Positions 6,008 to 64,000 of a stretch of 64,000 nt of DNA are shown here, piece by piece. Source of the DNA: Heterotrichella gracilis (lineage: Eukaryota; Sar; Xanthophyceae; Tribonematales; Xanthonemataceae). Below the pieces are notes generated by a model. That model worked only from the letters and a program-made list of their open reading frames with translations. It did no database searches and was not told the DNA's origin. The stretch's first letter is position 1; the number at the start of each line of letters is the position of its first letter. The position numbers and the translations under genes are program-made. The DNA lies in NCBI GenBank assembly GCA_032358255.1, contig JAULBX010010656.1:1-64000 (forward strand), in the 5' to 3' direction.

Positions 6008-6097
6008 CTATGCCGCCACACACATCATCAAGGTCTGGCCTGGGAAGAGGTCGGCAGGGATCGGGGCGCCATTTGCTAGCTTCTTGCCCAGAGGGCA

Positions 6098-9000
6098 CTA
6101 GGTGCAGCCCTTGGTGGGGTGGCAGCCCTGGCAACCTAGGAACAGAGGGCAGCTGGCGCAGTTGATCATTGCATTGCCTTTGCCGTCCCGGTCCACTGAT
6201 GCAAAGAAATTTGTTGCACAGCCGGTACAACCCTTGCCATCCACGCACTTTGCGCAGCCGGTGGGGCAGGGGGTGCAGGAGGTGGGTGTACCTGGCAACT
6301 TGTAGTACCCCTTGGGGCAGGTCTTGCAGCCCTGTCCAGCACAGTCATTGTCAATTGCCCATGTTGGTCAAAGCATACACTTCAAGCAATACAGCCACAT
6401 TGGCAGACAATCCTGTATATGCAGCGCCAAGCAGTTCTGTGCGAAAATATGTACGCCAATCAATGCATGGTGGGAAGAAGGGATCAATGCAGTATGCTCA
6501 CAGTATGGCCACAGAGCTCGACCTTGCCCAGATGCAAAAGTAAGTTGTGCGTTAGGTCCCAAGGCTGGGGTCGGGTGGACCCCAACCTCCTCATCGTGCA
6601 CAGGAGTAGTGCATCGTTCAACGCGGCATTGCCCATGGGTGCGACCAGGACACACAGCGTTAATGCAATTGCGCTCCTGTCATTAAATTATATACCTTTA
6701 ATTATGTAATGAGCTATATAATTAAGCTACTCATTAGGTCCATTGTCTAGCTTCAGGAAATCCTCCTCTAAACCCCTTCCTAGTCACTACATCAAATATC
6801 AATTAGTGAGGTCTTTGCGCACTAGTTAGCTGACCTGGTTAACTTCACAACCATGAATGGATTAGAATACTCTTCTGGAATGCAACCATTTCCAGTACAC
6901 AACACAATGGCCGCGCCTCAAGCTGCTGTGGCATTGCCCATCGCGCACGCATACCTTGATGGCGTCGCAGTTGGTGCAGCCCATGTCCAACACAGTGCAC
7001 TTGCTGCAGGTTGGGGATCCAAACATATCATGATTCAGTGGGGAGGTTGAGGGGATGTGCACGTATCCCGCTGGGCACTTGCTGCAGCCCTTGCCATCCA
7101 CACACACCCGCGCCACGCAGTCTGCCGCTGTGGTGGACGGCACATCAGGGGAGTCGTTGCAGGGCAGGCACAAGGCGCCCCAATTGTGTGATCGCCACCT
7201 ACAATTGCACGTGCACCAAAACGCTTGGTATGCAGAACATGCAAAGACAAGTTACTGTAACGTATGACATTAATGTTGCAATTGCACAAAATTGCACCAG
7301 GATACTTAATGTTAAGTATCCTGGTGCAATTGCAACTGTTCAGTCAAGGACATGCGGTATGGTTGAAACAATGTGTTGGTCATCATTTTTTAATAATTGA
7401 TGGCTAAATCCTCTTCCTTAACCAGCCTGTTCAAGGACAGGCTGCGTAGTAATTCACTAAAAACCAACACCTTACAGTCTGAGAAACATGCAATGTCTGT
7501 CAAACATTGCAATGTATTTTGACATGTTGTAACAGGTTGACAAACTTGTGTCAAGACACCTTTCGACACACAGTAAATCAATCCATTCCAAAACACCAAA
7601 AGACAGCCACACATGACGAGATGTGCCCTATATGGTCACAAGCCACCAATGCCGGATCTTGCCGCACTCACATGTAGTACCCTGGCTTGCAGGTAGTGCA
7701 GCCTGATTGGGTGCAAGTGGCACATCCATCTGTTTTTTGGTAGCCAGAGGGGAAAGCAGACCATGGAAGGTTGTCATCCGAGAAGGATTTGCATGTGGGG
7801 CACGATGCATAGGTGCTGCTACCTTCCACCTGCCATGGGGAAGCATCTTCTGGTTTGAAGAAGTAGCCAGCCTGCAGCGAAAGGGTTATAGTTGTTGGGT
7901 ATGGTGTTGACATAGCCAAGGGATGTATGAACACCCTCTGGCAACCAGATCTGCGTTCATAAGTTATACCACCCAGCAATCAACTGTCAAATAGCAGAAA
8001 TTTCACTTTAAGTTGCCCTTCACACCCGTTTTGAACAGCGGGAATTTCACTGTAAGTTACAACGCTCCTGTCAACAAAATGACACTGCAATGTACAGCTG
8101 TACAGCTGTATCTAGATCACTTCTGTAGTACATGCATTTCCAGGCTAATGTTGTTACGTATGCATTGTCCCCAGTTTATACATTTGGCAAGAGACAAGTC
8201 TCTCCTGAACTCTGTGCCAGATCATCACCATTGAATGGTAATCACCACGTATGTTTGCTTGGCACCTACCACCAGCATGACTAGTTTTTTAAATATCAAC
8301 TAAGGATATGAAATAAGCTCCTATAGTGTAGGAGACTAAAAAGGTCTCCCAGATACTTTAACTATTAATTAAGATATGTAAACTTACTTCTTTATATATA
8401 AATTTCAAGGTTCATGTGGCTTCAGCCTATTACCACTTTACAAAGGCTACGTGAATGTCTGGAAACCATTCCAATGCTCACCTTGCACTTGAGGCACCCC
8501 TTGTTTGGCACACAGGCTCCCGCACAGCCAGTGGGGCACTGCACGCACACGTTGATGCTGCCATGGTAGTGCGGTTCCTGCGCATGTGCATGCATTAGTC
8601 TGAGTCAGCATTGAATTATTTACAGAAAGAGAACAACCACAGGTGGCAGTCCAGGTACACCATACATGCATGAGCTGCATCGCACCTTCTTTGGGAAGTA
8701 ACCCCCTTTGCATGACGTGCACCCCTTGGCATCGGACTTGGCGCAATTGAGGCTGGACACAACAGTGCAATGCCCATCCGAAACAGTACTATTCTGACTG
8801 TCCCCGCCTTGGTAGATGTACCCTGGCTTGCAGGCTGTGCACCCTTTGTAGTCCTTACACTTGGCGCAGTTGGAGGGGCACTTACGCATGTAGACCTTAT
8901 CATCTTTCATCTTGAAGTACCCCTTGGGTGTCACCGCTGTGCAGCCAGTGTTGGAGTTGCAGGCGGAGCAGCCCACACCAAAGGAATCCTGCACACAGTG

Positions 9001-12000
9001 GCGGGTAGATGTTAGCAAGCACTGTGGACCTGGTGGCCATACTATGCTGCTGCATGTTCAATGCAATTTCAACAGATGCCTAATTGCAGCCACAGAAAGC
9101 ATGGTGCGCACGTAGCTACGCTACGTATACCTTTTTTCCTACCAATGCGCAATGTATAAAACCACTCACCGGATCATTGCAAGCGCTGCAGGATTGACCT
9201 TCAAGGTAGGAGCCCTTGGTGCAAGTGAGGCATCCGTAAGTATTGCATGTCGCGCAGCCATCTGGAGCCTTGTTGCAGCTCTCACACTTGAACTGGCCAT
9301 TGGCTTGGTAGCCAGAGATGTAGGGGGACCAGGCTGGCATGTCTTGCAAAAAGCCGCCCGCCTTGCATGCGGTGCATCCAGTCTCTGGCACGGCACTTGC
9401 ACACAGGCTGTTGCCAAAGTGCACGCATGTCTTCAGGCCAGCCAGAGAGGGGTGTTCCTGCGAGTTCTGGACAATGGCTGAAAAGGAGTCGGCTGCACAA
9501 GAATGGACAAGTAAGGCGGCTGGCCGTTGGCATGTAGACACATCTACGCATGTGTTTTGCTGGATCTAGCTAATCTAGCTATGGGGATGCACTGGGGCAA
9601 CAAGGTACCCTGCCTGTGGGCGGATCAGATATTTTGTTTTGACAGCCAAAAGTGACACTTTTATCAACAATACTAGCATTTATTAAACTTAACACGAGCA
9701 CTGTATGTGGTCACCAAGCCACTGTAGCAACTTTAAAAAACAAATTATGACAGCAGGGTCCAGTGTCAAATGAATTATTTAATGCCGAGAATGATTTACA
9801 AACAAGTGAGTCAACATGCTGGCGAGTGGTACGCAATCTTTAAAATGCACTGATGGTCTTCCTGGTTGATAATGTTCAATCAGGTTGGAAGGTCATTGCG
9901 TGATGATCTTGCTACATATAATGTGACAAATAACAAAAAATCCCTGTCCACCCTGCGATGATAACCGACCTGGACATGTGCTGGTGCACCCTGTTTTTGC
10001 ATTGCATTCCTTGCATCCCAAAACCTCCTGGCAGCTGCGGCACACCTTGGACCTTAGGGTACTGTTGAGGTCACGAAGCAGTAGCAGGAAATTCTTGGGA
10101 CAGGAGGTGCATCCCTCAGCAGAATTGCACCCATTGGCACACCTGAGGAACTCAAGGGCCAGTCAAGAAGGGCAAGTCGACCAAGCAAGCAAGATAATGA
10201 AGTTTAACTTGGAGCATTCAGCACAGTGGCCCTGCCCCACTTGCAGAAATGGGCTCTTGTTCAATCTGAGTGATCACACTGAGCGTGCATTGCAACATCT
10301 GAAGTGTCCACTTAGTGACAATGTGTCCTGCAAGCGTGAATCATACGGCGCAAGCCTGCCATTGCATGACAATAAGTAGTGCCGCTCCTCAACCACAGCT
10401 TGCAGCGCTAGCCTCAGTCACTTCACATTCCATGATGGGGTGGTGCAGCGCTTGCGGATCATCTGGTTGTGCAAAAACTGTTGCATGGAACCACAGTGCA
10501 CGGCATGCCAGCTACCTGCCGTACTCCGCACAGCTCTTGCATTGCGTATTGGCCAGGTTGAGTGGCAGGCTGTACGATGCCGTTTTAATGGTCCTGCTTG
10601 GATCGGGCAGCGGCTGGTACATCATGTAGCCCTGGGTGCACTCTGCGCATGCTCCGTTGGAGGCAAATCGCCTGTACAGTGCAAAGCCAGTGACTCTGTT
10701 GCAAGCCTGCGGCCGCTGATTTTTGAAAGCAAGGTATGCAAAACAGTCTCCAGCACGTCAGCAATCTCTGGGCTTAATGCTTCTGCTTTGCCAGAAGTGT
10801 GCCGAAAGATGCACGTTGTGACATTGCACACACTTGTGATTCACTGGCAAGGACTCACTTGCAGTTTTCCTTGGTCAACCTAGGCGGGGTGATGCAGGTG
10901 CGTGCTGAGATGGGCACCTTGAGGTTTGCGCTGAACCCTAGGTACTTGCCAGCAGGGCAGGAGGTGCATCCAACTGTGTCCTTGCAGACAGCGGCGCTGC
11001 AGCCCAGCTTGGAGCAGGGCACGCAGGAAAACCCTATGCAAGGATAAACACATGAGATCTTTGACTATTTACCATCATCATCATTTTCACACATTTGGAA
11101 CCAAAAATATTGCCACGATGGCCATTTGCCAATGATTTGGCAATCAAGCAAGCTCTTAAGATTGTAGCATCAATCGCATGCGGCTTGGGAGCAACTTAGT
11201 CTACTTCCCTGCAGTTTGTGTAAGATGCCTCATGCAGGGCTAGCACACCATGGCTGGCCTTGTCGTTTATCTTTTTTCCGGTACCCACTCGGTCTACAGG
11301 GCCCCTGTGCAACACTCACGTCATAATATTTTCCCAGTCCCCAATATTTTCTCGGGACCACTCCCCAATACCTGTTGAGTAAGCGGTGAAATTGATGGCA
11401 GGCATTCCAACCAGATTTGGAAAAGCATCTGCATCGTGGTAGTATGCTTGCAAGACCCGGGATGAGCCTGCAGCAATGGGGAAAGAAGGTAGATGAAAGG
11501 GGGAGGGGAGTGAAACCATGGGTGCAACCATATATTCAGTTTGAATACAGTGGGGTCCAATGGATGGATACGGTGGGATAAAACAGACCTCCACATGGCA
11601 CGCTCTAAGCTCACCTGCAGGGCATGCGGTACATCCCAGGAAGTCAACCGCTGTGTCGCATCCCAACAACATGGGCTCCACGCAGCGCTGAACCCTTGCA
11701 ATCTCTGGACCACCACTGCTATCTTCAAAGAAAGTAGTGACCAGCTCCTGCATGAGTATGTCCCCAGCTGCACATCGGCTGCAGCCAAGACCTGTATGGA
11801 AGGTGGGGATGAGCAGCGGACCATGTCAGCAGCTTGTTATTCAACAGGGGCCGGCAAAGAGCAACGTATTTTGTTCCCCTTGTCTCATGCCTTGGTCATT
11901 GTACAATCAACCCCTGGTGCACACTGTGTAGCTGCTGACATGGCAAAACTTCCACCACTGGCCACAAAACAACTCTCTTACGCAGAAACGTGACACTTTG

Positions 12001-13102
12001 CTGTTATGAGATGCAAAGGAGCCTTGTCTACCTAACCAAGAGAGTATGACCATCCTCCCAGGCAGGATTTGGCAAAGGCCCAGGCTTAGATGCACGGCAT
12101 CACAAGCACCCTCTGAGCCAGGGCTTGGCACCCACAGGAGGTTTTCAACTCTCGGTTGCTGAAGGGGTTTAGGGTTTAGGGTTTAGGGGGCGCACCTGGT
12201 GCACATGCTCCACTAGGGCAGTGCAAGTCCTTGCTGCAGTTGAAGCACTTAGACCAATACTCGGTACTGTCAGCACCATCATAGATCATGCCAATAAGTG
12301 TGTACCCTGACTGACATCTGCGCAAGTGGAAAATTGGTCTCGAGGCCTGGTTTAGCAAAGTGCCAAAGGTTGAGAGAGGACGGCACGTCAGGGTTATGGT
12401 TGTGTCCAGAGTCCTAGCTCAGCAGTGGTAATGGCCGAATCTAGGTGTCGCTTCCATCTGACCCCTTCATAGCTATAGTGCATTCTGAACATATGGTTCT
12501 TCAGATAATGCTGGTGAAACCCAGCCCGGTGGCCAAGATGGGCTGATACAATGACAGATCACTTGCCATCTAAACCTTTACCATTTAATCAGTGTGGCAG
12601 GGTGCAATTGCATTGCACGCCTCTTTGTAATGCCGCACCTGCTGCACACGCCCTTTGGCATGCACTTTGCACACCCAGCACCTCCGGCCTTGCAGGTGGT
12701 GGTAGCAGCAAGCACACGCCGCCCTGTAACAATCTCCCCAGCATCCAGGTGAGCTTGGCAGACCACCAGGATAACCAGGAGCAGCGGCAGGCCTAGAAGG
12801 CATGGACAGGTCAGGCATATTAGGTTCAATATGGATGATGCTAGTATAATGGGACACTAGAGTACTCACAGCACAGTCACTACCAATAGCAATAAAGAAA
12901 ATCAAAAATATGTATGTACTTGTTTTTCCAAATCAGCACTTCAGTAATGTACATGTAGATGTGAATGAACTTCCACCGCGAGTACCGATCGCAGGAAGGT
13001 TGCGTCACACTTGCAGGTTGCAGCGCCTTGTTAGTGCATCCACGAGCAGAAGGGCGTCTCACCTTCTACCTGGGTAGGACTACACCTGCGGCCAGCTGTC
13101 AT
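6098..13102 (-). CDS. Gene A: secreted cysteine-rich repeat protein, truncated by a premature TAG
   Basis: Fourteen exons: 13102-13063, 12792-12639, 12317-12196, 11791-11615, 11467-11372, 11033-10859, 10671-10516, 10142-9970, 9492-9170, 8988-8686, 8577-8482, 7871-7672, 7198-6955 and 6331-6098. Every junction is GT...AG, and phases match the paralogues. The start exon reads MTAGRRCSPTQVEG and runs in phase 1 into the hydrophobic core LPLLLVILVVCQA. Cys-rich modules follow, with typical text such as GCTSCPAGKYLGFS, CQEVLGCKEC and CPTGCAKCVDGKGC. In the last exon GGC TGC ACC is followed by TAG (6098-6100) where the paralogues have a codon for Ala, Val or Glu. The frame continues open to the ancestral stop at 6008-6010, so the loss is 30 codons including the conserved PGQTLMMCV end. 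The product would be 830 aa instead of 860. It may still be functional if the tail is dispensable. It pairs head-to-head with gene B. Confidence 0.8.
7290..7331. repeat. Perfect 20-bp-arm palindrome in gene A intron 12
   Basis: The arms ATTGCACCAGGATACTTAA and TTAAGTATCCTGGTGCAAT are separated by only TG and extend one further base pair. It lies in the intron between 7198 and 7672. It could form a cruciform or an RNA hairpin. No function is evident. Confidence 0.8.
12164..12190 (+). repeat. Interstitial telomere-like repeat (TTTAGGG)3 at a splice donor
   Basis: Three TTTAGGG units sit just inside gene A intron 3. On the coding strand the donor GTGCGCC (from 12195) runs directly into CCCTAAACCCTAAACCC. 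The same position carries the repeat in genes C and E. Confidence 0.8.
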
Positions 13103-13961
13103 CGATATCGCTGTAGTATGTTGGGCAATTGCAGTCGCGTTTGGTTACGTGTGGGCCTGCAGCAGCAGACCCATCAGGATTGATAGAATGGCACACAAAA
13201 ACAAGAGGTTTATGAGGCCCTGCACGCCACTCCAGTACCGACAGTTGGGCCACATATGCATGCATTGCACCGGGCACATGCCTGCATGCCAGTGACTACG
13301 CGTTTGAGAGAGCCGCACACTCAGCAAACTCAGCACGTGTATGCGTTCGTAAGTGGTACGAGACAAGCCGCAAAATAATGTACACCCGACGGCGTGCTGC
13401 GCTCTTGCCTGCTTACTTTTGGCGAGGTCAGCAAGTCCTGCATCGGCTACTGTTGTGGGTTCGTACCTCATAATCATGAAGCAATGAAACGCAGTGGCAT
13501 CACTTTATTTCGCTTTTGACATCGCCCTAATACATAGGCACTGCGGCGTGTGCAAGTAAAGCTTGACCAGGGTCGACGTGTCATTGTGACACCGCAGTGA
13601 CGTCTCCGATACGGTATCGGTTCTAAAATTTGTCGTCAAGCAACGTTGGAAGCCGCGGACAACCCTGATAGCGACATCAACATCTGTAGCTTTTGGACAC
13701 TGCAACTTCTCGAACCTGAATGAGACGCGAGAGGTGGCTTTATTCCAGCTTAATCGAGAGGTGGCATGCATGCATTTGAAGGCATTGATGCATGCACTGT
13801 AAAAACGCATACGAAGCTAATAAGCAGGCGAAGGCGAGATTGTTTGGCTCCTTGTGTTCAGCCAATAGCTCCTTGTATACAAGGTTGCATCAACCCACTG
13901 CGCTCACGGCATTGTACCTCTAGTGCATCTACTATTCTAAGAGGACAACAGGCACCCAGCC
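13103..13961. promoter_or_regulatory. Divergent promoter region of genes A and B
   Basis: This 859-bp spacer separates the two start codons. At 13587-13620 it holds a block shared with the two other divergent spacers: TGACACCGCAGTGACGTCTC followed by a GATACGGTATC palindrome. A second shared block (AGCCGCGG) lies at about 13651. TGACGTC resembles bZIP-type sites, but the factor is unknown. A GCATGCATGC run (13766) lies on the B side. The promoter role is inferred from position and conservation. Confidence 0.6.
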
Positions 13962-16900
13962 ATGACAGCTGACCGGGGGTGTAGCCCAACACTTATTGCA
14001 GGTGAGGTGACCACCTTCTTTCTGTTGCAAAGAAAGAAAGAAAGAAACAGAACGCCCCCACACACGGCGGCAAACCACAACCACCAATGTTGAAAAACAC
14101 AGACAAGCCGGGCAGCAACCAGTGGAACATGGCGTGGGTAACAAGGGCATAGCACCTAAGCATAGCCCCGATTAATGTCTGTCAGTGTACGAGTCACGGG
14201 GAGCAAAGTACGAGCTGGCGGTGGTAAAGCGGGGACGGGTGCGGCGTGAATTATTAGGCTGGGCTGACGTTGCATAGGAAAGGGCACTGCAGCTAGCGCT
14301 AGGCCCTCTGCCGGTTGAATTGGTTGACATCAAGCACTCACCTGGTGGTGGATATATTTGTGGGCAAGAGTTTATAAATTAGGTGCATGTCTCTGTGCTT
14401 GCATATCCCCACACGATTGCCACTGCATTACCACCGGGGTCACCAGCACTATTCCAGATGTTTCATCATTTAATTTCTTTCGATTCACTGTCGTGGGTGC
14501 ATTTATTCAAGCTGCACACAACTACATTTGCTATGATGTGGGAAGGGCGGGGGTCAGGAGGTCCTGCAAGTATCTTCCCCTGTGCAGCTGCGAGTATCCA
14601 GTATTTGACATGTTGTTACATCACGACTTTATTTTTGGCTTTTATATTGATTAATATGGGCTCACAAGGCTGGTAAAAGGAGTGCATCACACTGCTCACA
14701 AAGGACTTTTGCTCCGCTTCTAGAATTGCATTCTTGTTGAGTACAAAATCACTCTGTAATGTACAAATGTCTGCCCTAAAGACTAGAAAAGTCTGCCCTT
14801 GAGCTTATACATATATGTCTGCTATTGTCCAGGCCTGCTGCTGCTTCTGGCGGCATGCCAAGCTCAAGTAGTTGCGGGAGAGGGGTTTGAGGGTGGTACA
14901 GGGCGGCGTGTGCTAGCTGCTGCCACCTCCTGCAAGGCCGGAGGAGCTGGATGTGCAAAGTGTGGCATGGACGACAGTGACATCGGAGCAGACCATCCCA
15001 GCGTCTTCTGCAGCAAGTATGCCGCACAAATTACATGTAGTAATATGTTCAAGTTGCCGTAGGAACTGGCCCAGATGGTCATAGTGTATCTGTCTTGTAC
15101 AATCAATCGACACCCAGCTTGCTTGGCATGGCATGCATTCCTCTGCAACAGGGCGTTTGGCACAGCCATGCCCCGCCCCTCCCTTACCTTTCTCAGTTAC
15201 TGAATGAACGGACCAATCCTCCTTATGCACAGGTGCAATCCTGGGTACACATTGGTTGGAAACATAGGTGGATACTTCAGCGGCAGAGGGAACAAGTGCT
15301 TCAGCTGCAGCATGGACCTGCGCTGCCCCAGTGGAGCCTGCGTGCCAGGTGAGCACCCTAACCCTCCCTAGCCCATCTAAGCTAGCAACCATTCACGGAA
15401 TTCTTGGCCACCGGCATGAGAGTCACCTGGTCACCGCAGTATGGTGACTAGAACAACACCCTCAAGGGCTGTGACTCCAGGCGGTCAACCGCTTTTCTGG
15501 TCACAACGTGCTTGTGATGCGCTGTGAGGGTCCAGGGACCCTTTTGTTGTGTTACATTCTTGTACAATACCTGACATTGAATGATGGAAAGCGTGTTCAC
15601 AACCTAATGCAGGTAAGCTAGGTAAGCCTGTTGACGTAGCCATCCTCAGAAGATGATCCCATCATCTATGGCCCCGAGCGCCTAAGGCCCTGTCTCTTGG
15701 CACTGAGTGATCAACCCCCTTGGGCGACTTTGCAACATGCCCCTGTTGATTTATCTCCCTGTCAGGTCTTGGCTGCAGCCGATGCACCACTGGGGACATA
15801 CTGATGGAGGAGCTCTTTCCTGTGTCTGTTGAAGACTACGCCGCTGTGCCAATCAAGGCACGGGTCCTCCGCTGCGTGAAGTCCGCATCCCTGGGATGCG
15901 CCACAGCAGCTGACTTCCTGGGCTGTATAACATGCCCTGAAGGTGATAACGGAAGAAAAACCCTAAATCGTAAACCCTAAAACCCCTGGGATATGCCACA
16001 TGCGAAGATGATAACGGAGGAAAACCCTAAACCTTAAACCCTAAAATCCCTGGGATGCGCCACAGCGGCTGACTTCCTGTGCTCTACCGCATGCGAAGGT
16101 GATAACGGAGGAAAACCCTAAACCTTAAACCCTGGAATCCTGGGATGCGCCACAGCGGCTGACTTCCTGGGCTACAACACGCCCTGCAGGTAAGAATTGA
16201 TTAAGAATTGAGGAATGCATAAAATGTGTAATCAATGCCATATTCCTGCAAATGCGTACAAAGGAATAGTCCTGACATGTGAGTGTACCTCCGTTGCAAC
16301 TGCCAATTATCGTAACCAAGAGTAAAAAAAAATATTATTATTTACACTTGAGAGTAATTGGGATGTAAATAGGAAGCTTATGAATTTCAGCGTTGTAGCC
16401 AGCTTGGCATGCCCAGCATTGAACCGGGGTAATGCCTTACCCCATTCCATGACCAAGACTTGTCTGACATTCTTTTTAGTGCGGCGCCACAGTCATGGGG
16501 CTTTTTGTACTATTGTGACATCCATGAACCTGACTTCACTTTACACGCTGGCCCCTGCTACTCTCATGGCATATGTACGTGTAACATATATTTATGTCAA
16601 TGCTGCAGCGTGCATTTACACAGGTAAGCTTGCATCTGCCGTTAGTTGCCACTTTAAATTCCACGAGATAAGTAATGCCACCATGGCATGTATGCACATG
16701 AAAGCCATTGCAGTGCATCATCAGTAGGCATCTCTAGGATGCAGATGTCAACATCAGCTTGCACGTTCGCACATGGAGTAGCAAAGGTACCTTTCACATA
16801 TTCTTCCGCAGAGAGTCTCTATTGTGGCGACATCGGCCCCCCGTACACACATTTTCCTCGTGAAACCCCTTACCACAGGTGCATCCCGGATGCTGGCGGC

Positions 16901-22441: not shown

Positions 22442-23607
22442 CTACCCTGACACACACATCATCAGCGTTTGCCCTGGCAGGAGGTTTGCAGGGAGCCAAG
22501 GGTACGCATTTGCTAGCTTCTTGCCGGGTGGGCACTCAGTGCAGCCCTTGGTGGGGTGACAACTGCCCTGGCAATCCAGAAACAGAGGGCAGCTGTTGCA
22601 CTGAATCTGACTACCATAAGCAATGGTGTCCCAGCTTCGTGACGCAAAGAAGTTTGGTGCACAGCTGGTGCAGCCCTTGCCATCCACGCACTCTGTGCAG
22701 CCGGTGGGACACGGGGCGCAGGTGGTGGGTGTGCTTGGCCGCTTGTAGTACCCCTGGGGGCAGGTCTTGCACCCCTGTCAAACACACGTCTGATCTCAAT
22801 CATTTATTGTGTTGTGCTTGGCTATTTCTGAGCAGTTGCAGTGCATTGCAGCATTAATGATTGCGTTGCGCGCAAAAGCATTATCCAGCAATCTGACCCT
22901 CTTTGAACTATTTGAACTTCAGATCTGGAGGTAATGGTTTCCCAGAGTAATCTGACTCTCTCTGAACAACATAGGTAATGACCAACCAGTTTACTTACAA
23001 AAGTCTCAGTTTTAATTAACAGGTTCACCTATACAATTGTTTAACCCTTGGAAACCATGTACAAAGAAGTACAATAGTGACCAGCTTAATACGATATCCG
23101 CAAGTATTAAAACAGCAAACCGCTGTCCCATGCTGCCGTGTCGTCCAGGTGTCAGAAATACATACCTTGACAGAATCGCAGTTGGTGCAGCCCATGTCTG
23201 CTATAGTGCACTTGGTGCAGGCGGGCGCAATGTATATTGCGTTGTAGTCTAGGTATCGGGTGCTGGGAATGTGCACGTATCCCGCTGGGCACTTGCTGCA
23301 GCCCTTTCCATCTGCACATCCCCGTGCCGCACAGTCTGCTTTTGTGGTGGTTGGCGCATCTGGGGAGTCATTGCAGGGCAGGCACAAAGATTCAAAGTCT
23401 AATGTCCACCTACAATAGCACATGCATACATATCTGTGGTGTTCCTGCATTGCGGTGGTGTGAAGTCGTGGAGAGGTGAACTACAATGCCCAGGACTGAC
23501 CAGCCCAGGTGCAATGGTGAAGGGCAGTCGCGGTTAGTTTTGAAACCGTTGCTCAAAGTACACCACAAAAGTATATACTACATAACTTAATAGTCTATAC
23601 TTTACGT

Positions 23608-23620
23608 AAACCCTAAACCC
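23608..23620 (+). repeat. Interstitial telomere-like repeat in gene C intron 12
   Basis: AAACCCTAAACCC, nearly two CCCTAAA units, in the intron between exons 12 and 13 of gene C. Confidence 0.55.
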
Positions 23621-28810: not shown

Positions 28811-28824
28811 TTTAGGGTTTAGGG
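28811..28824 (+). repeat. Interstitial telomere-like repeat (TTTAGGG)2 at the gene C exon 3 donor
   Basis: On the coding strand the donor GTGCGCA is followed immediately by CCCTAAACCCTAAA, the same arrangement as in genes A and E. Confidence 0.75.
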
Positions 28825-46841: not shown

Positions 46842-46843
46842 CT

Positions 46844-53600: not shown

Positions 53601-56039
53601 ATCACCTGCTGAAAATGCACATGCACATGCGCACACCATGCATAGGCACCGAACCTCACAGCAACCTAACCTTGCGTGTGTAGTAAGTGTAGAACTTCTG
53701 AGCTGAGCGTGGCAAACTGTCCATTTGCACATGTTGCTACAAAAGCTATTATAGCTGGCATGTGCACATGCAGATGACATCCTCTGTGCTCCCTGGCGAA
53801 GCATTGATGACACACATGGAGATGGTACCCCCTACATATTGATTTTTAAACGTATATACCTGTAGGGCATGTAACACAACCCAGGAAGTCAGCGGCTGTG
53901 GCACACCCCAGGGATGCGGGCTTCACACAGCGGTTCACTACTGTATATTGTGGCCCACTATCATAGGACTCGTCGTGATGACTCACGTGGGTGAGATCCT
54001 CCATGAGTATGTCCCCAGCTGCACATCGGCTGCAGCCAAGATCTGCAAAGGAAAGATAGCATTAGCTACTCAGTATGAACCAGGAGGTGACTGCGCAGCA
54101 CAACTTTTAGACGAGACATCACTGCCCATGATGATTGAAGCTTATGGGCACTACGCATGATGCGTTATGTAAATATAATATATTATCCAGCGGTGTCATT
54201 CAGCGCCGATCTGCATTTAGGCCTGAGGCAATCATGGATTTACTACTATCTAAGTACAATGTAGAAAAAATGCTGCCTAGACCTTCAGCATTAATATCAG
54301 TACTGAGAAGTTAAAGAATGGGTTTGTGTGCCAACTAAGCCCACACAGAGGCTCAGCCCTTCCACAATTATTTGGAAAAAACCATAGTTTACCAAGTTGA
54401 AGCTGCCAACTAGCCCAGCCCCATATAACAATATCAGCTGTGGGGTGATAGAAATTATGCAAAGCAAGTCTCGCAGTAAGCGCCGATCAGGCAATCATGC
54501 AAAAGGACCTCGTCTACCTAGTAGCCAACTGGAATATTCCCACAAAATAGAGGGTCATCCTCCTCCAATTACATCCCAACTAATCCCAGCTATCTCCAGG
54601 CCTTGCCATTTATAGTAGCCACCCATGACTTTTGTAAAATTTGCAAATTATATTAAAATTATACAAAAACGATTGGCTAAAGTCCCTGGCTAAAACGGCT
54701 CCAAAAACGCATGCATGATGTATGATGATTTGACTCGCTTTTCTGGTGATACTATATGGTACAGGGTCAGACCGGGTCTCCTGGCCAACACTTTACAGTA
54801 GGGAGAGAGGTGGTTGCCCTCACGGCCTCTGTAAGGTGTAAGGTATGCACCTGGCACGCAGGCTCCACTGGGGCAGCGCAGGTCCTTACTGCAGCGGAAG
54901 CACGTGGGCGGCATACCCACCTGAGTTTCAATTAGTGAGTATCCGGCCTGACACCTGTACATATGGAGAGTTCTTGCTTTAGTTCGGCAATGTGGATGTG
55001 TAATACAAATTGGCCCAGTCCTGGCCCAGCAGTGCTTGAAGTCGTAGATACAACAGCAGGAATCTTTAGTATTGTCAGTATTGACAATTTTATTGTCCAC
55101 AAAGAAATTAAGTCAGGTTCATGGGCCACTGATGGATCGCAAAATCAGATCTTGGGTATTTTGAGTAGCAGTAGATTAGTGTGCTTGCACAAAATCCCAT
55201 GCCAGGCTATTGTGCAAGCCTCCAGTGTAGATATTCAAGCCCTTACTTGGCGCAAGCGTTCATGTCGTCTTCCTTGCACTGTGCACATCCAGTTCCTCCG
55301 GACTTGCAGGAGGTGGAAGCAGCTAGCATCCGCCGCCCTGTACCACCTTCAAGCCCCTCGGCATCTAGCCGAGCAAGGCCCACCACCACGAGCAGCAGTA
55401 AGCCTTGCAAGCACAGCATAGGGTCAACTCGGTGACAATCGGAAAAACAGCGTTGAACAATCCCAAAGACAAGAATTTGTTTCTGGAGCGACTGGATCGC
55501 GGTAGTACTATCCGTGTTGCAGGTGTTATATGTGAAATCATGGTGCCTACTATACGGATGGCCTTTTGGCACTGAAGCTTTTCCGCGCCATCCCACCAAG
55601 CACCGAAACTTCACAAGCTGGGCACACGGTGTGAGCACGCTTGTCAGGTTGTCAAACGTGTTCTCCCTCACCTAGTCTTGCAGGTGCCCATACGTGACAC
55701 AATAAGGGGGTCCAACAATACCAATAACAATGTACTGCACAAGCCCACACACCAATGAATGACAGCGACCAAATGGCAGGTGGCAAAGCAAAATAGAATA
55801 CCCCTGTCTATGCACGAGAAGCCTGTCTGATTCTGTGCGAATTCCTTCAGAATCGATCGAATTCGAAATCCCTGGTCCCCGGACACGATCCCGGCTGCGT
55901 ACATTCGTACACGAACGAACGAAGGTGTTGACAAATTCAATCATAAAATTCCTACAAGTCTATCCCGGTGGGGGCCATCCTCGTTGCAAGATCACTTACC
56001 TACAGGCAGATATGTTCTACGCCTCCTGTCGGCTGTCAT
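47624..56039 (-). CDS. Gene F: secreted cysteine-rich repeat protein, intact
   Basis: Fourteen exons: 56039-56000, 55403-55247, 54954-54851, 54042-53860, 53488-53393, 53189-53015, 52791-52639, 52290-52124, 51424-51105, 50687-50388, 50037-49927, 49367-49165, 48599-48359 and 47977-47624 (TAG). The joined frame is 868 codons, so 867 aa. The start exon MTADRRRRTYLPVG joins LLLLVVVGLARLDAEG. It is the most diverged intact copy. Exon 4 begins with Asp (acceptor GCAG/ATCTTGG), and its loop between the two Cys clusters is His/Asp-rich. Exon 11 is 111 nt instead of 96, with an inserted SMPGS-like segment. The tail reads LLPRQTLRMCVTA, where others have PGQTLMMCV. The introns carry three hairpins and a duplicated exon 8 donor. 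It is head-to-head with G. Confidence 0.88.
51500..51537. repeat. Hairpin with 15-bp arms in gene F intron 8
   Basis: The arms TAGCTTGTGACGTTT and AAACGTCACAAGCTA surround an 8-nt loop. The arms contain TGACGT. It lies 260 bp from the larger palindrome in the same intron. Confidence 0.7.
51797..51965. repeat. 169-bp near-perfect palindrome in gene F intron 8
   Basis: Two 84-bp arms (51797-51880 and 51882-51965) are reverse complements with one mismatch by my reading and a single-base centre. The sequence is AT-rich with no coding content. Such a fold-back could be a recent fold-back transposon, a template-switch product, or an assembly artefact. Confidence 0.85.
52098..52124 (-). repeat. Duplicated splice donor of gene F exon 8
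   Basis: The exon end CCCAG/GTGAGGATGC is followed 26 nt later by a second copy, CTGTCCAG/GTGAGAA, embedded in GATGCACTGGTACC. The first donor is used in the model because only it keeps phase 1. Using the second would shift the frame. Confidence 0.65.
52927..52963. repeat. Perfect 18-bp-arm palindrome in gene F intron 6
   Basis: The arms TACACCGTGTGTGTAAAC and GTTTACACACACGGTGTA are separated by one G. The flanks (ATGCATC / TATGCAT) continue the symmetry imperfectly. The alternating GT/CA core could adopt unusual DNA structure. Confidence 0.8.
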
Positions 56040-56868
56040 CGTGGGCGGTCCTCTGTTGGGCGAAAGGATGCAGCGCATGCACTATGCCCAGGTGCAGGTG
56101 TGTCTTGAACCTGGAGCAGACAGTTTTCAACATCATAATCATAAGACACGAAACTACAGCAGACCGTTTCAGAAGTAATTGTGTGCGGTACACGTGCATG
56201 CATGCCAATGGTTATCGATGTTGGCTGAAACAATAAAGGGAGCCGCAATGCATCTGCATCCAACTTGCAGTTACTTAGTCTACCCACTTGTATGAAATAA
56301 GCCGCAAAGGCCCTGTTGCTCTCCAACTGCGTGCTGAGCTTTCGGCTTTTGGCGAGTCTAGACCCCAATTGCAGGGGGCAATTACAACTGTGAAGGCATC
56401 AATATTTGTGGGTCATAAGCGTCACTGAATACAAAGTTTGGCATCACCCAACTATGCATGGAAGCGCTTCTTCTGCACGCTCAAGATAGTGGGACGAGAT
56501 ACCCGCGTATCTTGTGAGTTGCGTCTGCATGCAGTGACACCGCAGTGACGTCTCGGATATCGTATCTATGCAGACTATATTGTTATTTGAAGCCGCGGGC
56601 CACTAGGTCTTTGCGACAAGTCTTATCACTCTTCTATCGCTTACCTTTACAAAAAACGGAGTTGTGGTTCTATCAAAGTGTTCAGACAAGGACTTGTCAT
56701 GCATGTATGCATCAAGCAAATGCTTGGCGATAGCTCGGCATTCTGGGTTTCTACAGCGGTCTAAGAGTTCCTCTTTGCAACTCCTGGCTGCAAATTTTCA
56801 ATCTTTATACTCAAGTTATTCTAGTAGTACTGCTGGTGCAGGCGCCCAACAAGGGACGTCCACCTGCG
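56040..56868. promoter_or_regulatory. Divergent promoter region of genes F and G
   Basis: This 829-bp spacer has the shared block TGACACCGCAGTGACGTCTC followed by GGATATCGTATC (56535-56566) and AGCCGCGGGC plus AGGTCTTTGCGAC (about 56591-56617). TCAAAGTGTTCAG and a CATGCATGTATGCAT block lie on the G side. CAGCAGACCGTT and GCATGCATGC lie on the F side, as upstream of C and E. The F leader has GCTGCATCCTTTCGCCCAAC before its start. Confidence 0.65.
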
Positions 56869-59800
56869 ATGCAGCATGTGACAGCTGGCTGGAGGAGTAG
56901 CATCGATACACCGCTGGTAGCAGGTGAGGTACTTGCTTGCTGCATTCCTTGCTCAGACAAAACCACATATGCTGGCGGGTATGCTATCTCCCGTCGATAT
57001 TGACGTTGACACGGTTTTGCAAAGCCGGCATGAAAATCAAGGACGGTGGCCATCACAGTCACCACAGTCATGACCAGCAGTCACCGACTCGTTGGCTGGA
57101 CAGTCACGTTCAGGGAGCCAAAAGGCTAAAGGAGTACTTCCATATCAACTTAAATCACGTCGATTTTGGTGTAATCCCTTCAGCAGGGTTTCAGAGGCGC
57201 TAGCTAAGCTCCAGTACATTAAATTCGTACCTGCCATAAACCCTAGCAAAGGGTTGCAGCCTCAACTGGTTTCCGGTCACAAATAACTGAGTTGGGGCCC
57301 CCGGATGTCCCCCAACTACTTCAAAAGGGGGGATTTTCTATTGGCGTTGACCATCCCTGAAGTGTCACCAAACCAGTGCATTCTGATATGCTGCTCACGT
57401 TATCCAGGCTTGCTGCTGCTTCTGGTGGTGTGCCAAGCTCAGCTGAATGGTGCTGCAACGGGGCTGGAAGGTGGCGGAGGCCGGCGTGTGCTTGCTGCTG
57501 CCGCCTCTTGCAAGGCTGGCGGAGCTGGATGTGCACAGTGCAGTGAATTCGACGACAGTGTGTGCCGCAAGTAAGGATTTGCACTCGAAACCTTTATGGC
57601 AGCCTGTTATGTGTGTACGTACAATTATTGTAATGTCAATGCATTCTAACACCTTGTACAACATGTAAATAACATGTTTTAGAACACAGTCGGAGATATC
57701 TTTACCAGTCCACTGATCATAAAAACCAATACCCAGCTTGGCACCCTGCTGCATGCCTGTACAGGTACGCAGCAAGACATGTCCCCCAATTCAAAAGTCT
57801 AGCATCTGCCCGCGAAGGGGTCATAAACTTCCTGAATCCATGGCTTGCTGCGTTTTAAGGCCCACTCCCCTGCGCACCCAGGTGCCAGTCCGGGTACACG
57901 CTAATCGGCACTCCCACCGATTATAGTAACTATCACAGTGGCGCTTGGTTCCAGTGCTTCAGCTGCAGCAAGGACCTGCGTTGCCCCGATGGAGCCTGTG
58001 TGCCAGGTGCGCGCACTGAACCCTATGCGGGGCGCCACCTTCCGCGCCATCTGCCGCAACCCCTTCAAATGCTTCATACGCATGTATATCTATGGTGTGT
58101 GGGGTCTTGCGCCTAGCACAATGAGGGAGGCAGTCCTGAATTGAGGACAGGCTCAGGGTTATGAGGCTCAAATGGCTTGACATGTAGGACGCATGGCAGG
58201 TTACCAAAGTGTATGGTTTTTGGGCAGCTATTTGGAAAACATTCATGGGGCAACCCCTGCAGGGCTACATGGGTGCCCTTGTCACTATGGATTTGCAGAC
58301 TAAGAACATACGAAAGTGGTACAAGCAATGCCAGGACAGGAACAGGTGGCGCAAGCTTGTACCTGGCTGATTGCTGATCCGGCTTTTGTGCTGGAATGCT
58401 TGCAATTGACGAATTGATTAAATTATATCCAATGGTACTATTATTATGGTGCCCCAAAAACACTGTCAGCAAGTTCTTGGCTGAAGCTGGCTTGAATCAA
58501 TTAGGCCGTGGTTGCCCAGTCCTGGGGGCACTCAATACTTGAATTCATTTAATTGGGGATGACCTCTAGGGTTACTTAAAAATTCTGTTGAAATCAATGG
58601 AATCACTAGCAGTCATCCTGCGTTGTCTCAGCGTCTTCACCATAAAGGTACATTACTGATGTCACACTCTTCCTGGCAGGTTTTGGCTGCAGCCGATGCG
58701 CAGCTGGGGACATATTTATGCAGGAGCTCATCCCTGCGCTTGCCATTGATGGCAACGACGGTTGGCCAGACAACGCCCAGGTGCAGCGCTGCGTGAAGCC
58801 TGCATCCCTGGGGTGCGCCACAGCGGCTGACTTCCTGGGCTGTGTCACATGCCCTGCAGGTGAGAAGAGTTCAAAGCCATCTGCATGTGTGTACAATCGC
58901 CTTACTGGCAGTTGCTGGCCTGTGACAGTTATTAATGTACTATGCTGGACAGGTAATTACCTATTAATAATATATGCATTTATTAATGACAATTCTGATA
59001 AAACGAATCGAGTGGTTTTTTTTATGTGCATGTGTGTATATGCCATTACATTACATAACTTGTCAACCTGCAAGGCTTGTTGTGGTCCACGACTCTGGCA
59101 CGAGGCCACATGGCCAACCATGCACAACTTGCAGCGGGTACTATAGGGCATACATTAGCTTGGACATACTTTCTATTTGTTTAATTGATTACTTGAGCTG
59201 GTCTTTATGCCTGCCTCTCATTCCCCTTGTGACCCATTTGCTGCAGGCACATCTCGGGTGATGGAGGCGTATTATTACAATGTATATGCCTTTTGGACAG
59301 GCAATGAAGACTACTACAAGCCCAGCAACAACTTCACTGCTTACTCAACAGGTATCATGGGAGGAAAAGAAGTGGGAGTGCTGAACAAAACACCATGGCA
59401 TGCCATGCCATGCACATATATGCCAGGAGCGTTGGTCAGAAAATGACGCCGCCGCCAGGATGCTTGTGAAACTTTGTTGACACAGACAGCAGGGAGGATG
59501 TAGTGAGAATCCAAGTTGTAGATAGCTGGTACCCATCCTGCTCCTGACAGCATCATTCTGTATTGGTTGACAGTAGGGGTGCAACAATAGTGGAGCCATC
59601 AGGCATCAAGGTGTTACCAATCCTTGCACAGGGTCTTCCTGCGTGTCCTGCTCCAAGCTGGGCTGCAGCGCCTCTGCCTGCAAGGACACAGTTGGATGCA
59701 CCTCCTGCCCTGCTGGCAAGCACTTAGGGTTCAGCGCAGACCCTCAGATGCCCATCTCTGTGCGCACGTGCATTGCTACGCCTGCCTTGACCAAGGCAAA

Positions 59801-62800
59801 CTGCAAGTGAGTGCTCAAATTTGAGTTTAGAGAGCACCATAATTACATAAAGCAGGAGCATTGCAGGCCAGAGAAAGGAAGACGGAGGCTTTTGCCCTGG
59901 CTGCCCTCATAATTTCTTCGTACTTATTTATTCCTATATTCATTCATTTATTTATTTATTTATTTATTTATTTATTTGTTTATTTGTTTATTGATTCATC
60001 GTACTCAGGTTACTCAGGCTAACATACAGCGTTCGTTCTTATTGTACAGGCAGATTGCCGCCAGTGGCGCATGTGCTCAGTGCAATCAGGGCTACATGAT
60101 GTACCAACCGAAGCTTGCACCAGAAAGGACCATAAACGGGGCAACGTACAGCCTGCCACTCAATCTGGCCAACACGCAGTGCAGGAGCTGTGCAAGCTAT
60201 GGGAGGTAGGCAGGACTTGATGCAAGTTCAACAGGTTGCATGCGCACAGTCCATCCGCAAGCGATGCACAACCCCATACGAGGGTTGCGTAATGAAATGT
60301 TGCTGTAAGCTGTTGTGTGATGGGGGTGCGTCGACAAAATACCAACAACTGCTTTTAGCTTTCTACTGCTCTTTCTCTTCTATTTCTATGGCATTTCTGT
60401 ATGTATTTCTGTTCTATTTCTATGCTATTCTGTTCATATTTCTGTTATATTTCTATGCCATTTCTGTATCTATTTCTGTTCTATTGCTGTGTACTCCTAT
60501 TTCCCTCATTTCTCCTATTTCTTCTATTTCCCTCATTTCTCCTATTCCCGCTATTCCCCTCATTTCTCCTATTTCTCCTATTTCCCTCATTTCTGCTATT
60601 TCTGCTATTTCTCCCATTTCTCCTATTTCTGCTATTTCCCTCCTTTCTCCTATTTCCCTCATTTCTCCTATTTCTCCTATTTCCCCTATTTTCCCTATTT
60701 CCCTCATATCTCCTATTTCTGCTATTTCCCTCATTTCTCCTATTTCTCCTATTTCTGCTATTTCTCTTATTTATGCTATTTCTCCTATTTCTGCTATTTC
60801 CCTCATTTCTGCTATTTCTCTCATTTCTGCTATTTCTCCTATTTCTGCTATTTCCCTCATTTCTCCTATTTCTCCTATTTTTCCTATTTCCCTCATTTCT
60901 CCTATTTCTGCTATTTCCCTCATTTCTCCTATTTCTCCTATTTCCCTCATTTCTGCTATTTCTGCTATTTCTCCTATTTCTGCTATTTCCCTCCTTTCTC
61001 CTATTTCCCTCCTTTCTCCTATTTCTGCTATTTCCCCTATTTCCCTCATATCTCCTATTTCTGCTATTTCCCTCATATCTCCTATTTCTCCTATTTCCCT
61101 TATTTCTCCTATTTCTCCTATTTCTGCTATTTCTCTTATTTCTGCTATTTCTCCTATTTCTGCTATTTTTGCTATTTCCCTCATTTCTGCTATTTCTCCT
61201 ATTTCCCTTATTTCTCCTATTTCTGCTATTTCCCTCATTTCTCCTATTTCTGCTGTTTCTGCTATTTCCCTTTTTTCTCCTATTTCTGCTTTTTCTGCTT
61301 TTTCCCTTATTTCTCCTATTTCCCCTATTTCTGCTATTTCCCTCATTTCTGCTATTTTCCCTATTTCCCTCATTTCTCCTATTTCTGCTATTTCTGCTAT
61401 TTCTCCTATTTCTGCTATTTCTTCTATTTCCCTCATTTCTTCTATTTCTCCTATTTCTGCTATTTCCTCTATTTCTCGTAACATGGCAGGTTTTTTGTTT
61501 TTTTTCCGTTTTGTTCTTGAAGGCATCGGAACCCCGCAAGTAACGTCGTACGCATGTATCTCGAGACGACGTCGACAGGCATGAGAACTTGTAGTGGTCC
61601 GTGATGTACCGTAACAGTTTCGATCGACGATGAGATCCGTAACATGTGAACGCAAACTAGACAGAGAGACGAACGTCCGATGAGTCTGAACGATCTGTGC
61701 TACGAGCATACAGGTTGCGAGGCCGATGTACAACGGAATGCAACGACTGAACCCCTAAATGCGAGGATCGGGAGTTTTGAGAAATAGGAGAAATAGGAGA
61801 AATAGAAGAAATAGGAGAAATAGCAGAAATAGGGCCCGGGAGGGAAAATAGAGAAATGATAGAAATGACAGAAAGTGGAGAAATAGGAGAAATAGGGGAA
61901 ATAACAGAAATAGGGTTTTAGGAGAAATGGAAACAAGAGAAATAGAAATAAGAGAAAGCAGGAATATTTATAGACCCTGTTTCAGAAAGCAGGAAACATG
62001 CGAAATATTTCTTAGTATTTCTACACGTTCTATTTCTTAGAAATATGGCTATATTTCACAGTTGCATTTCCACCTCTATTTCTATGCTATTTCTCCTTAT
62101 TTCAGAAATACAAAAGTATTCCTTGGTAGTTTGTGGGTTTGTCAGTAGTGTCCAGCCCCTTTATACTATGTCTTGAAGCTGGCATCATGCAGTGTTTGCC
62201 CTTGTGCCATGCTGCATTGCAGGATGGACAGTAGTGCTGTCACAATGCATGTGGTTGGTGATTGGTGATTTTAAATTGGTTCCCATCCATTGTCAACTGC
62301 AAATGCTGTGGTACTGGACGTTCCAGGTTCAAATTTTATACGCCTGCCAGTGTGGTCAACCTGGTTTCTGCCCCCTGGCAATTTTATGATCCTTGTGTGA
62401 GATTGCCACAGGTGCGCTAGTTGCGACCCTGCCAAAGGCTGCACCTCCTGCCCCAAGAATTTCCTGCTGGTGCGCGACCTCAACTGTACCCTAGGGTCCC
62501 AGGTCTGCCGCAGCTGCCAGGAGGTGCTGGGGTGCAAGGAGTGCAATGGAAAAATAGGATGCACCGGCACTTGTCCAGGTGAGAAGAGGATGCTGATCAT
62601 GATTGCAAAGAGTTTTAGCAGTATGATTTGTGTAAAATGTATCCAATTATGATCCCATTTATCGTAATCGCTTGTTCCAACAAGGGGACAGTGTGTCACC
62701 CCATAGGGCCAACAGTGTCACTTCCACTCAGTGGTGGAGGCTTGGTGCAAGCACATGCAGATATACTATTTGACCGTGTAGGGACTGCACAGCCATATTT

Positions 62801-64000
62801 GCCTGGCTCTCGATTCCTGGCAGCAAAACAGTGGTGACTTACGATGTAGATGAGGTTGAGCTGCACTATAATTAACAAGCCTTCACCACGTGGTTCTTTC
62901 TTTGCAGGCAGCACCTTGCTAGCCACTGCCAGCAAGACTGACCAGGACTACCCCTCACTGGCTGGCCTGAAGGCATGTGTGCCCTTTGACAAGCGCCTGT
63001 GCGCAACCATCGATCCAGTAAAAGGCTGCACCACATGCAAGGTGGCTGGCGTTCTATCAACCTACTACAATTCCCCCACAACCTACATCTCTGCCTTCCA
63101 AAACACTTTTCAACGCACGTGCGAGGGCTGTGATCGTACTGTCTGTGCAATGTGCGCCAACGGAGGCAGCTGCCTCACTTGCGTTGAGGGCTCCTACATG
63201 CAGCCTGACATGGACGGGGGGCCTTACTGCAACGGCTGTGGAGCGGTGAGTGGTGTTTATAACTTGTACACATGGGAAAGCAAGCACATTATGCGCCATA
63301 ATCAGGTGCCATACTTACTCATGCCTGCCTGAATCATATGAATGTTGCTAAACTATTGTAATCCCTTCCAACTCATTAATTTTGGAGGGAATTTGATACT
63401 TTAATATATTTTCTCGAGTTCTTTCACCTAGCTACGCATCCTTTTTCATGGGGATTAAGCTGCTATGCTGCCTAAGAATTCAGGACATACAATGACATCT
63501 GCAACGGACATGCAAATGCCAAACCAGGCAGCCCACATCGTTGCTGACACCTAATCGCCACTGTGTGCATGTGCAGTTTGGCCCTGGCTGCGAGGCCTGC
63601 AATGTTGATGATGGCTGCACGTCAGTGACACCCAATGCCCGTAGTAAGGGGTACTACAAGTTCAAAGATGATGGTAATCGACTCGAAGTGCTAGGGTGTC
63701 CCTCCCATTGTGCCAAGTGCGAGGACAACAAGGGATGCACAGCCTGCAAGCCAGGATACCTCTTCCGCGGCGGCGTTGATCAATACACCAATGCTGCTAA
63801 TGGGGAGTGCATTGCTGTGTCCAGCCTCAAATGCGCCAAGTCAGATGCCAAGGGGTGCACGTCATGCAAGGAAGGATACTTTGTAAAAAAGGTGCGTGGC
63901 ATGCCGTGCCAGTGGTGTCATGTTTCCATGATGGTAGACCAGGGATTAAGACCTGCAAAAAGGGTGGCAACCCGCCTGTGCATTTAAAAGGCATAATTTC
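56869..64000 (+). CDS. Gene G: secreted cysteine-rich repeat protein, 3' end outside the window
   Basis: Ten exons are visible: 56869-56923, 57408-57570, 57882-58006, 58680-58859, 59247-59351, 59632-59806, 60050-60205, 62412-62578, 62908-63245 and 63577-63891. They give 593 codons in continuous frame, and exons 11 to 14 should follow. The usual start ATGACAGC has become GTGACAGC. An in-frame ATG two codons earlier gives MQHVTAGWRSSIDTPLVAG, joined to LLLLLVVCQA, so the signal peptide survives. Exon 9 lacks the usual ANSF start and begins GSTLLATASKTDQ. Exon 10 has an inserted NARSKG. Intron 7 is 2.2 kb, against 322-698 nt in the other genes, because of a minisatellite. It pairs head-to-head with F. 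Confidence 0.85.
59940..59992 (+). repeat. TTTA microsatellite in gene G intron 6
   Basis: About ten tandem TTTA/TTTG units, ending 58 bp before exon 7. Confidence 0.75.
60360..61486 (+). repeat. Pyrimidine-rich 9-bp minisatellite in gene G intron 7
   Basis: More than 110 tandem 9-mers of mainly three kinds: ATTTCTCCT, ATTTCTGCT and ATTTCCCTC. The left end (60360-60490) is a looser mix of ATTTCTATG/TATTTCTGTT-type units, so the array grades from degenerate to regular. The coding strand has almost no G apart from the CTGCT variants. The 9-bp period has no stop in most frames, which produces long spurious reading frames of SPISAISLI or LFPSFLLFL type. It lies wholly within the 60206-62411 intron. 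Confidence 0.92.
61774..62110 (-). repeat. Opposite-strand block of the same 9-bp minisatellite
   Basis: GAGAAATAG-type units (61774-61960) are the reverse complement of the main array unit, followed by mixed ATTTC/GAAAT segments to about 62110. They could fold against the main array, about 290 bp away. They are interrupted by a GGGCCCGGGAGGG segment at about 61829. Confidence 0.8.

Follow-up and report, generated by a model that had tools for sequence, protein, structure and literature searches.

The DNA analysed here, referred to below as the window, comprises positions 1-64000 of contig JAULBX010010656.1 (C107:1-64000; GC content about 50%), part of an assembly of 68.5 Mb and 903 contigs. 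Most of it is taken up by an array of paralogous 14-exon genes, whose predicted products are large, cysteine-rich and probably secreted proteins. An earlier note on this DNA had described such a family in seven copies, and comparison of the window with itself revealed repeated blocks at the same positions. Using seven-way, block-by-block exon alignments and the shared AG/GT borders, we independently rebuilt the seven copies (A-G), and recovered 14 exons with common borders in 7/7 of them. In blastn comparisons between the copies 17,258/18,488 exon bases (93.3%) could be aligned, compared with 3,695/35,892 intron bases (10.3%). The shared gene structure is therefore not a product of chance, and the paralogous family is real.

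Thirteen exon blocks were located in 7/7 copies, with acceptor and donor sites common to most or all of them. In B, C and F, blastn by itself detects exon 5 only weakly (E-values of 0.0004-0.019); its borders nonetheless align. Exon 1, also present in 7/7 copies (13962-14001 in B), precedes exon 2 by 0.26-0.83 kb and encodes MTAG/MTAD... (MQHVTAG... in G). The previously reported intron phases (1,2,1,1,1,2,2,1,0,0,0,2,0) are exact in A, B, D, E, F and G, as well as in copy I. The joined exons of B, D, E, F and G encode 894, 885, 892, 867 and 888 aa, respectively, with one terminal stop each. The gene models are as follows:

6008..13102, minus strand: gene A, broken by an in-frame TAG in exon 14
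Exons 1-7 of A: 13063-13102, 12639-12792, 12196-12317, 11615-11791, 11372-11467, 10859-11033, 10516-10671
Exons 8-14 of A: 9970-10142, 9170-9492, 8686-8988, 8482-8577, 7672-7871, 6955-7198, 6098-6331 (to TAG)
13962..21949, plus strand: gene B, intact, 894 aa
Exons 1-7 of B: 13962-14001, 14833-15016, 15233-15348, 15766-15942, 16879-16974, 17306-17480, 17667-17822
Exons 8-14 of B: 18145-18308, 18724-19094, 19323-19637, 19964-20059, 20555-20763, 21028-21259, 21596-21949
22442..29708, minus strand: gene C, broken in exon 3 only, by an in-frame TAG and loss of frame
Exons 1-7 of C: 29669-29708, 29240-29411, 28832-28940, 28409-28585, 27827-27955, 27240-27408, 26893-27048
Exons 8-14 of C: 26241-26407, 25512-25894, 24992-25294, 24542-24637, 23802-24025, 23166-23409, 22442-22774
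30492..38414, plus strand: gene D, intact, 885 aa
Exons 1-7 of D: 30492-30534, 31060-31231, 32007-32131, 32622-32795, 33105-33215, 33632-33806, 33998-34153
Exons 8-14 of D: 34527-34693, 35127-35446, 35879-36175, 36496-36591, 37029-37252, 37483-37729, 38064-38414
39477..46083, minus strand: gene E, intact, 892 aa
Exons 1-7 of E: 46044-46083, 45446-45641, 45214-45338, 44827-45012, 44461-44556, 43907-44081, 43565-43720
Exons 8-14 of E: 42949-43127, 42213-42553, 41706-42002, 41336-41431, 40885-41090, 40248-40485, 39477-39824
47034..47144, minus strand: exon 13 remnant in the interval that separates the F tail from the E head
47624..56039, minus strand: gene F, intact, 867 aa
Exons 1-7 of F: 56000-56039, 55247-55403, 54851-54954, 53860-54042, 53393-53488, 53015-53189, 52639-52791
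Exons 8-14 of F: 52124-52290, 51105-51424, 50388-50687, 49927-50037, 49165-49367, 48359-48599, 47624-47977
56869..64000 in the window, plus strand: gene G, intact, 888 aa, ending past the window at C107:66873
Exons 1-10 of G: 56869-56923, 57408-57570, 57882-58006, 58680-58859, 59247-59351, 59632-59806, 60050-60205, 62412-62578, 62908-63245, 63577-63891
Exons 11-14 of G, outside the window: C107:64428-64523, 65409-65626, 65974-66220, 66547-66873

A stop in gene A had already been noticed; we place it in exon 14, and homology to this exon continues past it to about 6011. The former count of five intact genes does not stand if C was among them, as its third exon is broken (the 13 others are open); C was presumably included because G is cut by the window end. 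Rescue of C by alternative splicing was rejected: 0/20 stop-free, frame-keeping choices (GT or GC donors) retain more than a part of the exon 3 family sequence. The product of D, formerly given as 872 aa, has 885 residues, since exon 12 begins at 37029, in line with the six other copies, while an AG 39 nt further inward yields the 872-aa version. Intron 7 of G is 2.2 kb long and contains spurious open frames of >380 aa on both strands because of a CTATTTC-rich minisatellite (window 60494-61475; periods 27 and 36, 27-36 copies).

The five intact proteins of this set (B, D, E, F and G) are 61-66% identical in pairwise comparisons, and the ratio of nonsynonymous to synonymous substitution rates (dN/dS) is 0.407-0.482 in 10/10 pairs, which, together with the coding alignment, indicates that the family is under purifying selection. 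Within gap-free columns with a majority residue, Cys is invariant in 97/99, Gly in 53/79 and Ala in 28/68. Addition of copy I as a sixth protein leaves 97/99 Cys columns invariant, and 38/97 of these use both Cys codons; it is therefore the residue that is kept, not the DNA. One of the two remaining Cys columns lies in the signal-peptide region, while the other is Gly in D. A conserved Cys of exon 10 (35879-36175) has been lost from D, which reads GCTAGKQGY in place of the GCTAC of the six other window copies and has 99 Cys. The ratio pN/pS (copy I as a shorter 876-aa model) is <1 in 64/64 thirty-codon windows, none of which gave a sign of diversifying selection. Its highest values, 0.77-0.87, fall within the N-terminal propeptide region and the loops that separate Cys pairs, e.g. 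those of exons 9, 12 and 14.

Seven is not the size of the array, but an effect of the window. A search with exon profiles revealed 11 copies (A-K, the last one cut off) and several fragments along about 100 kb, starting at 6 kb and running up to where the contig ends (106.5 kb), the window holding most of the array. Beyond the window lie:

C107 67.3-68.1, 82.7 and 91.3-93.7 kb: array fragments identified with exon profiles
C107 71.2-81.0 kb: copy H, with stops and frame changes
C107:83537-90346: copy I, intact; 889 aa with 100 Cys, all 13 phases shared, GT-AG borders
C107 94.7-101.7 kb: copy J, with stops and frame changes
C107 103.4 kb to contig end: copy K, four exons seen, frame open

Copy I was left out of the derivation of the model, and the border of its exon 2 was set manually to the family position. 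Six of the ten full-length copies on the contig are therefore intact (B, D, E, F and G, plus I outside the window), and A, C, H and J are broken; part of the frame breaks could be assembly errors. This co-occurrence of broken and intact copies is best read as evolution of the family by birth and death. In a tree of the ten copies A joins E (1.00), D joins G (0.997), and B (plus strand) joins F (minus strand; 0.918), of which the A-E and D-G joins are in keeping with duplication of pairs.

The family extends beyond this contig. Throughout the genome, 32/51 exon-14 matches, on 14 contigs, have E-values <= 1e-10, and a query of exons 6-7 gave 57 matches, of which 28 are exon-6 copies by the same threshold; both copy counts are lower bounds. 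One copy on contig C511 (7783-16756) contains exons 1-14 in the order seen in the array; the final part of its exon 12 is present in added copies, and there are weak added matches to exons 3 and 4. The added copies (C511:4175-4341 and 15523-15568) comprise the final 46-48 bases of exon 12, lie behind the exon and, where there are two, are about 120 bp apart, as if a module were multiplying in the C511 subfamily. An exon-14 alignment gave 34 pattern matches, 0 of them confirmed, in viral contigs and 73, again with 0 confirmed, in prokaryotic genome contigs, results that are uninformative on other algae.

Three head-to-head pairs (A/B, C/D and F/G) have start codons 859, 783 and 829 bp apart, and a 27-33-bp element with a TGACGTC core is common to 3/3 of the gaps. 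The element, new in this analysis, is about 27 bp long and has two TGAC cores 11 bp apart; its TGACGTC core presumably resembles bZIP/CRE sites.

13103-13961: A/B head-to-head gap
13586..13612, plus strand: shared promoter element in the A/B gap, with the TGACACMGCAGTGACGTCTCSGA core
29709-30491: C/D head-to-head gap
30140..30166, plus strand: shared promoter element in the C/D gap
56040-56868: F/G head-to-head gap
56534..56560, plus strand: shared promoter element in the F/G gap

When up to 2 mismatches were allowed, TGACACMGCAGTGACGTCTCSGA was found at 5 sites in the 68.5 Mb, all of them exact and all on C107 (a control pattern gave 0): one in each of the three gaps, one ahead of I and one ahead of J. 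A looser 18-mer revealed a sixth, weaker site in the array, with one mismatch, in front of H. At <=1 mismatch this 18-mer has 10 sites, 6 on C107 and 4 on contigs without family matches (C407:23435-23685, twice; C468:25619; C512:10128), the only one-mismatch sites outside C107. At 2 mismatches the matches are background (18 sites in all versus 30 for the control). Among the five exact sites 23-27/27 positions of the core are identical. Of gapped comparisons of their 100-bp flanks, 5/20 beat 100/100 shuffles (AB-CD left, CD-FG both, FG-J right and I-J right), while 15/20 do not, and the C/D and F/G gaps align beyond the element over 216 columns at 67.6%. The core is far better kept than the flanks and therefore appears as if selected, beside residual common descent in some of the latter. 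A GCCGCGG motif lies 19-44 bases beyond the core in 5/6 sites and is absent at H.

Copies H, I and J face remnants, i.e. exon fragments on the opposite strand. Exon-1 remnants were identified at 82771 and, in decayed form, at 70370; none was found facing J. E is the sole A-J copy whose head faces neither a partner nor a partner remnant. No element was found in front of it, either with the 18-mer or by the 27-base scan; the latter falls short of a strict test, since it overlooked the weak site of H as well. The distribution of the element suggests that the array genes beside it are regulated together and constitute a set, still evolving, that encodes surface or wall proteins.

The intact products (867-894 aa) contain 98-100 Cys, i.e. 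about 11%, and begin with a short, mostly basic start followed by a Leu-rich stretch (MTA...GLLLL-like) and, in 6/6 intact proteins, RR[VM]L. No 19-residue hydropathy window past residue 45 exceeds 1.59 in the five proteins tested; no membrane anchor was seen by hydropathy, and in 5/5 no C-terminal window rises above 1.6, so that no membrane segment is visible there. Hydropathy and Cys counts thus bear out the cysteine content, signal-peptide-like start and absence of a visible anchor reported before, and the family products are probably secreted. The commonest Cys spacings over six proteins (with the shorter model of I) are 2 (224 times) and 5 (96 times). Each of five proteins examined has 36-39 CxxC pairs and 19-21 GCxxC motifs, compared with 1.0-1.2 of the latter in residue shuffles (maximum 7 in 2000), a 16-21-fold excess.

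As regards the host, the genome yielded 43 matches to chlorophyll a/b-binding proteins, and its CP26 best matches solved CP26 chains, which we take to be green-algal. Together these genes place its plastid in the green lineage. Trebouxia is a likely, though unproven, genus: the GC content fits, but searches for the RuBisCO large subunit, a Trebouxia ITS primer and an 18S oligonucleotide gave no match, perhaps because plastid and rDNA are absent from the assembly or because frequent rDNA words are passed over by the search. Any lichen link of the alga is conjecture.

The growth-factor-receptor or furin-type likeness proposed earlier gained support. Residues 587-659 of the gene E product align to the Fu repeats of R-spondin-1 (phmmer versus PDB, E-value 2.6e-5), over about 70 residues only, and a three-protein profile matched R-spondin furin repeats in PDB (E-value 2.4e-5), also over only about 70 residues. 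In Pfam no model exceeded its own cut-off in the three proteins scanned (B, G and I left out): Furin-like_2 (PF15913) was present at an E-value <= 10 in 2/3 (best 0.0048), no other furin model matched, and a single UCR_Fe-S_N match was at chance level. NCBIfam gave no match in 3/3 proteins. The products thus look like a chain of furin-type repeats, lying outside the Pfam family by its own cut-off. C-x2-C-x5-C-x2-C modules are common to the array proteins and to the growth-factor-receptor cysteine-rich repeats of R-spondin and Furin-like_2. However, the former carry about 20 GCxxC modules in one chain of about 890 aa, compared with the two repeats of R-spondin, and they come from a green alga, have a different module order and no receptor partner domain that we could see. 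No described family with the same order was found in the libraries searched, and the order remains as unfamiliar as the earlier note had it.

That note had also mentioned protist surface antigens. The variant-specific surface proteins (VSPs) of Giardia are marked by a C-terminal membrane segment and a CRGKA tail, and they are expressed one at a time, with switching. Like the array proteins they are CxxC-rich and multi-copy, with variable loops on a Cys skeleton; the array genes differ in having 13 introns. A VSP profile gave no match at E-values up to 10 in 3/3 proteins scanned (the HMMER filters discard most weak matches), and CRGKA and GGCY are absent from 6/6 intact products. As no C-terminal membrane segment was seen in the five proteins tested either, a Giardia-type VSP identity was set aside. 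Pherophorins and other volvocine matrix families, which are secreted, multi-copy proteins of the green-algal extracellular matrix, resemble the multi-copy and probably secreted array proteins. The latter differ from pherophorins in their furin-like Cys spacing, and three of them scanned with Pfam gave no match to a pherophorin model.

By description, not sequence, two papers offer possible algal parallels. Uncharacterised secreted Cys-rich proteins of Trebouxia sp. A48 have >5% Cys and no annotation, and >75% of the uncharacterised secreted proteins of this alga are <300 aa (PMC12712428); they share with the array proteins predicted secretion, >5% Cys and the lack of annotation, and they belong to a chlorophyte whose genome is of similar size. 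For Asterochloris, a 100-member family of uncharacterised proteins is reported (PMC6652019). In one open library we found no paper combining furin-like with Trebouxia (main texts), nor one combining growth factor receptor cysteine-rich, Chlamydomonas and extracellular matrix.

We propose, with middling confidence, that the products of this chlorophyte array are matrix or recognition proteins, secreted and stapled by disulfides, that the family evolves by birth and death, and that its paired genes share bidirectional promoters built around a common element. Each product would be made with a signal peptide and probably trimmed at the conserved RR[VM]L site; S1P-type subtilases cleave sites of this type in plant propeptides. 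The chain would fold as small cross-braced modules on C-x2-C-x5-C-x2-C, furin-like or R-spondin-like. Because no anchor was seen, it would be set free into the wall or the matrix around the cell, where the invariant Cys skeleton could hold copy-specific loops that bind partners or cross-link the matrix. The role would be that of an extracellular-matrix, adhesion or recognition protein, not of an enzyme. Paralogues would arise by duplication, partly as head-to-head pairs, and be lost by decay, and the pairs would be driven from bidirectional promoters of about 0.8 kb sharing one array-specific element.

Several observations weigh against this proposal. Secretion, splicing and expression are predicted here from DNA; the signal peptide call is based on hydropathy and pattern, and the top hydrophobic window of the E product is at residue 603, not N-terminal. 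The Furin-like_2 match in E scores 16.4 bits against a cut-off of 28. Structure models of exons 10 and 14, predicted as single exons, reached mean pLDDT (predicted local distance difference test) values of 60 and 64, with short beta strands, and their top Foldseek matches, again R-spondins, came from these weak models with E-values of 0.056 and 0.16 and template-modelling (TM) scores of about 0.3, none at <= 0.001. A dN/dS of about 0.4 is constraint without a diversifying signal, and a recognition role is not supported thereby. The likeness of the elements is in part common descent of their flanks, and the site of H keeps just about 20 bases. Finally, the B-F join is unexplained by duplication of pairs alone, and the tree backs such duplication only in part.

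Other explanations were considered. In volvocine algae secreted matrix proteins are induced by sex and wounding, and it is possible, if rather unlikely, that the array is a sexual or life-cycle-specific wall or matrix family (e.g. of gametes or the zygote wall) co-induced via a private element. The paired divergent promoters, the confinement of all 5 exact matches of the element to C107 and the lack of a <=1-mismatch site on any other contig with family matches fit such a switch. On the other hand, many copies outside the array have no element. Secreted defence or toxin-like proteins directed against fungi, bacteria or grazers, the diverged copies providing a broad repertoire, would equally be Cys-rich, probably secreted and multi-copy, with broken and intact copies adjacent. 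We nevertheless consider this unlikely, as the products, at 867-894 aa, are too long for small peptides, three proteins scanned with Pfam showed neither a toxin nor a lectin domain, and no thirty-codon window has a pN/pS >1.

The abundance of CxxC pairs (36-39 per protein), a further point that speaks against our proposal, could instead reflect metal-binding or redox scavengers of the periplasm or wall, with the pairs binding Zn, Cu or Fe. Disulfides are favoured by the probable passage through the oxidising secretory pathway and by the Cx2Cx5Cx2C spacing, which is furin-like, and the R-spondin likeness points the same way; this explanation is quite improbable, and a metallothionein-like reading was set aside on the same three grounds. 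Lastly, the broken copies A, C, H and J and the several fragments might mark a decaying, functionless repeat array maintained by duplication alone. Yet 6/10 full-length copies retain frames of 867-894 aa over 14 exons, dN/dS is 0.41-0.48, and the Cys skeleton and the element are better kept than introns and most flanks, which makes decay the most improbable of these explanations.

Within the proposal of secreted matrix or recognition proteins, one extension is speculative and has a low probability: the array may be a surface or matrix recognition repertoire of a possible lichen photobiont, in which the array-specific element switches on pairs of diverged, disulfide-stapled, furin-like rods when the cell meets a partner, mates or is stressed, and in which the paralogues of other contigs follow a different wiring. 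If true, the array would be the green-algal analogue, unrelated by descent, of the variable Cys-rich surface protein arrays of protists and animals. If the alga is a lichen photobiont, the family would provide a concrete gene set for what an algal surface shows to a fungus, and interest would be greater still were the array contact-induced. With at least 28-32 copies and products of about 900 aa, none of those scanned over a Pfam cut-off, the family makes up a considerable unexplored share of an algal proteome and, probably, secretome. Because divergent promoters share the element, regulation can be tested directly, and with exon borders this clear, correct annotation of the copies is straightforward.

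Two further features of the window lie outside the exons. At 1550-4360, where there is no clear gene and no array match was seen, several degenerate repeats are spaced at about 520-625 bp, their long matches being 66-69% alike. Short telomere-like stretches (AAACCCTAAACC / TTTAGGGTTTTT) are present at 15939-16064, in intron 4 of B, and at 31670-31720, in intron 2 of D.

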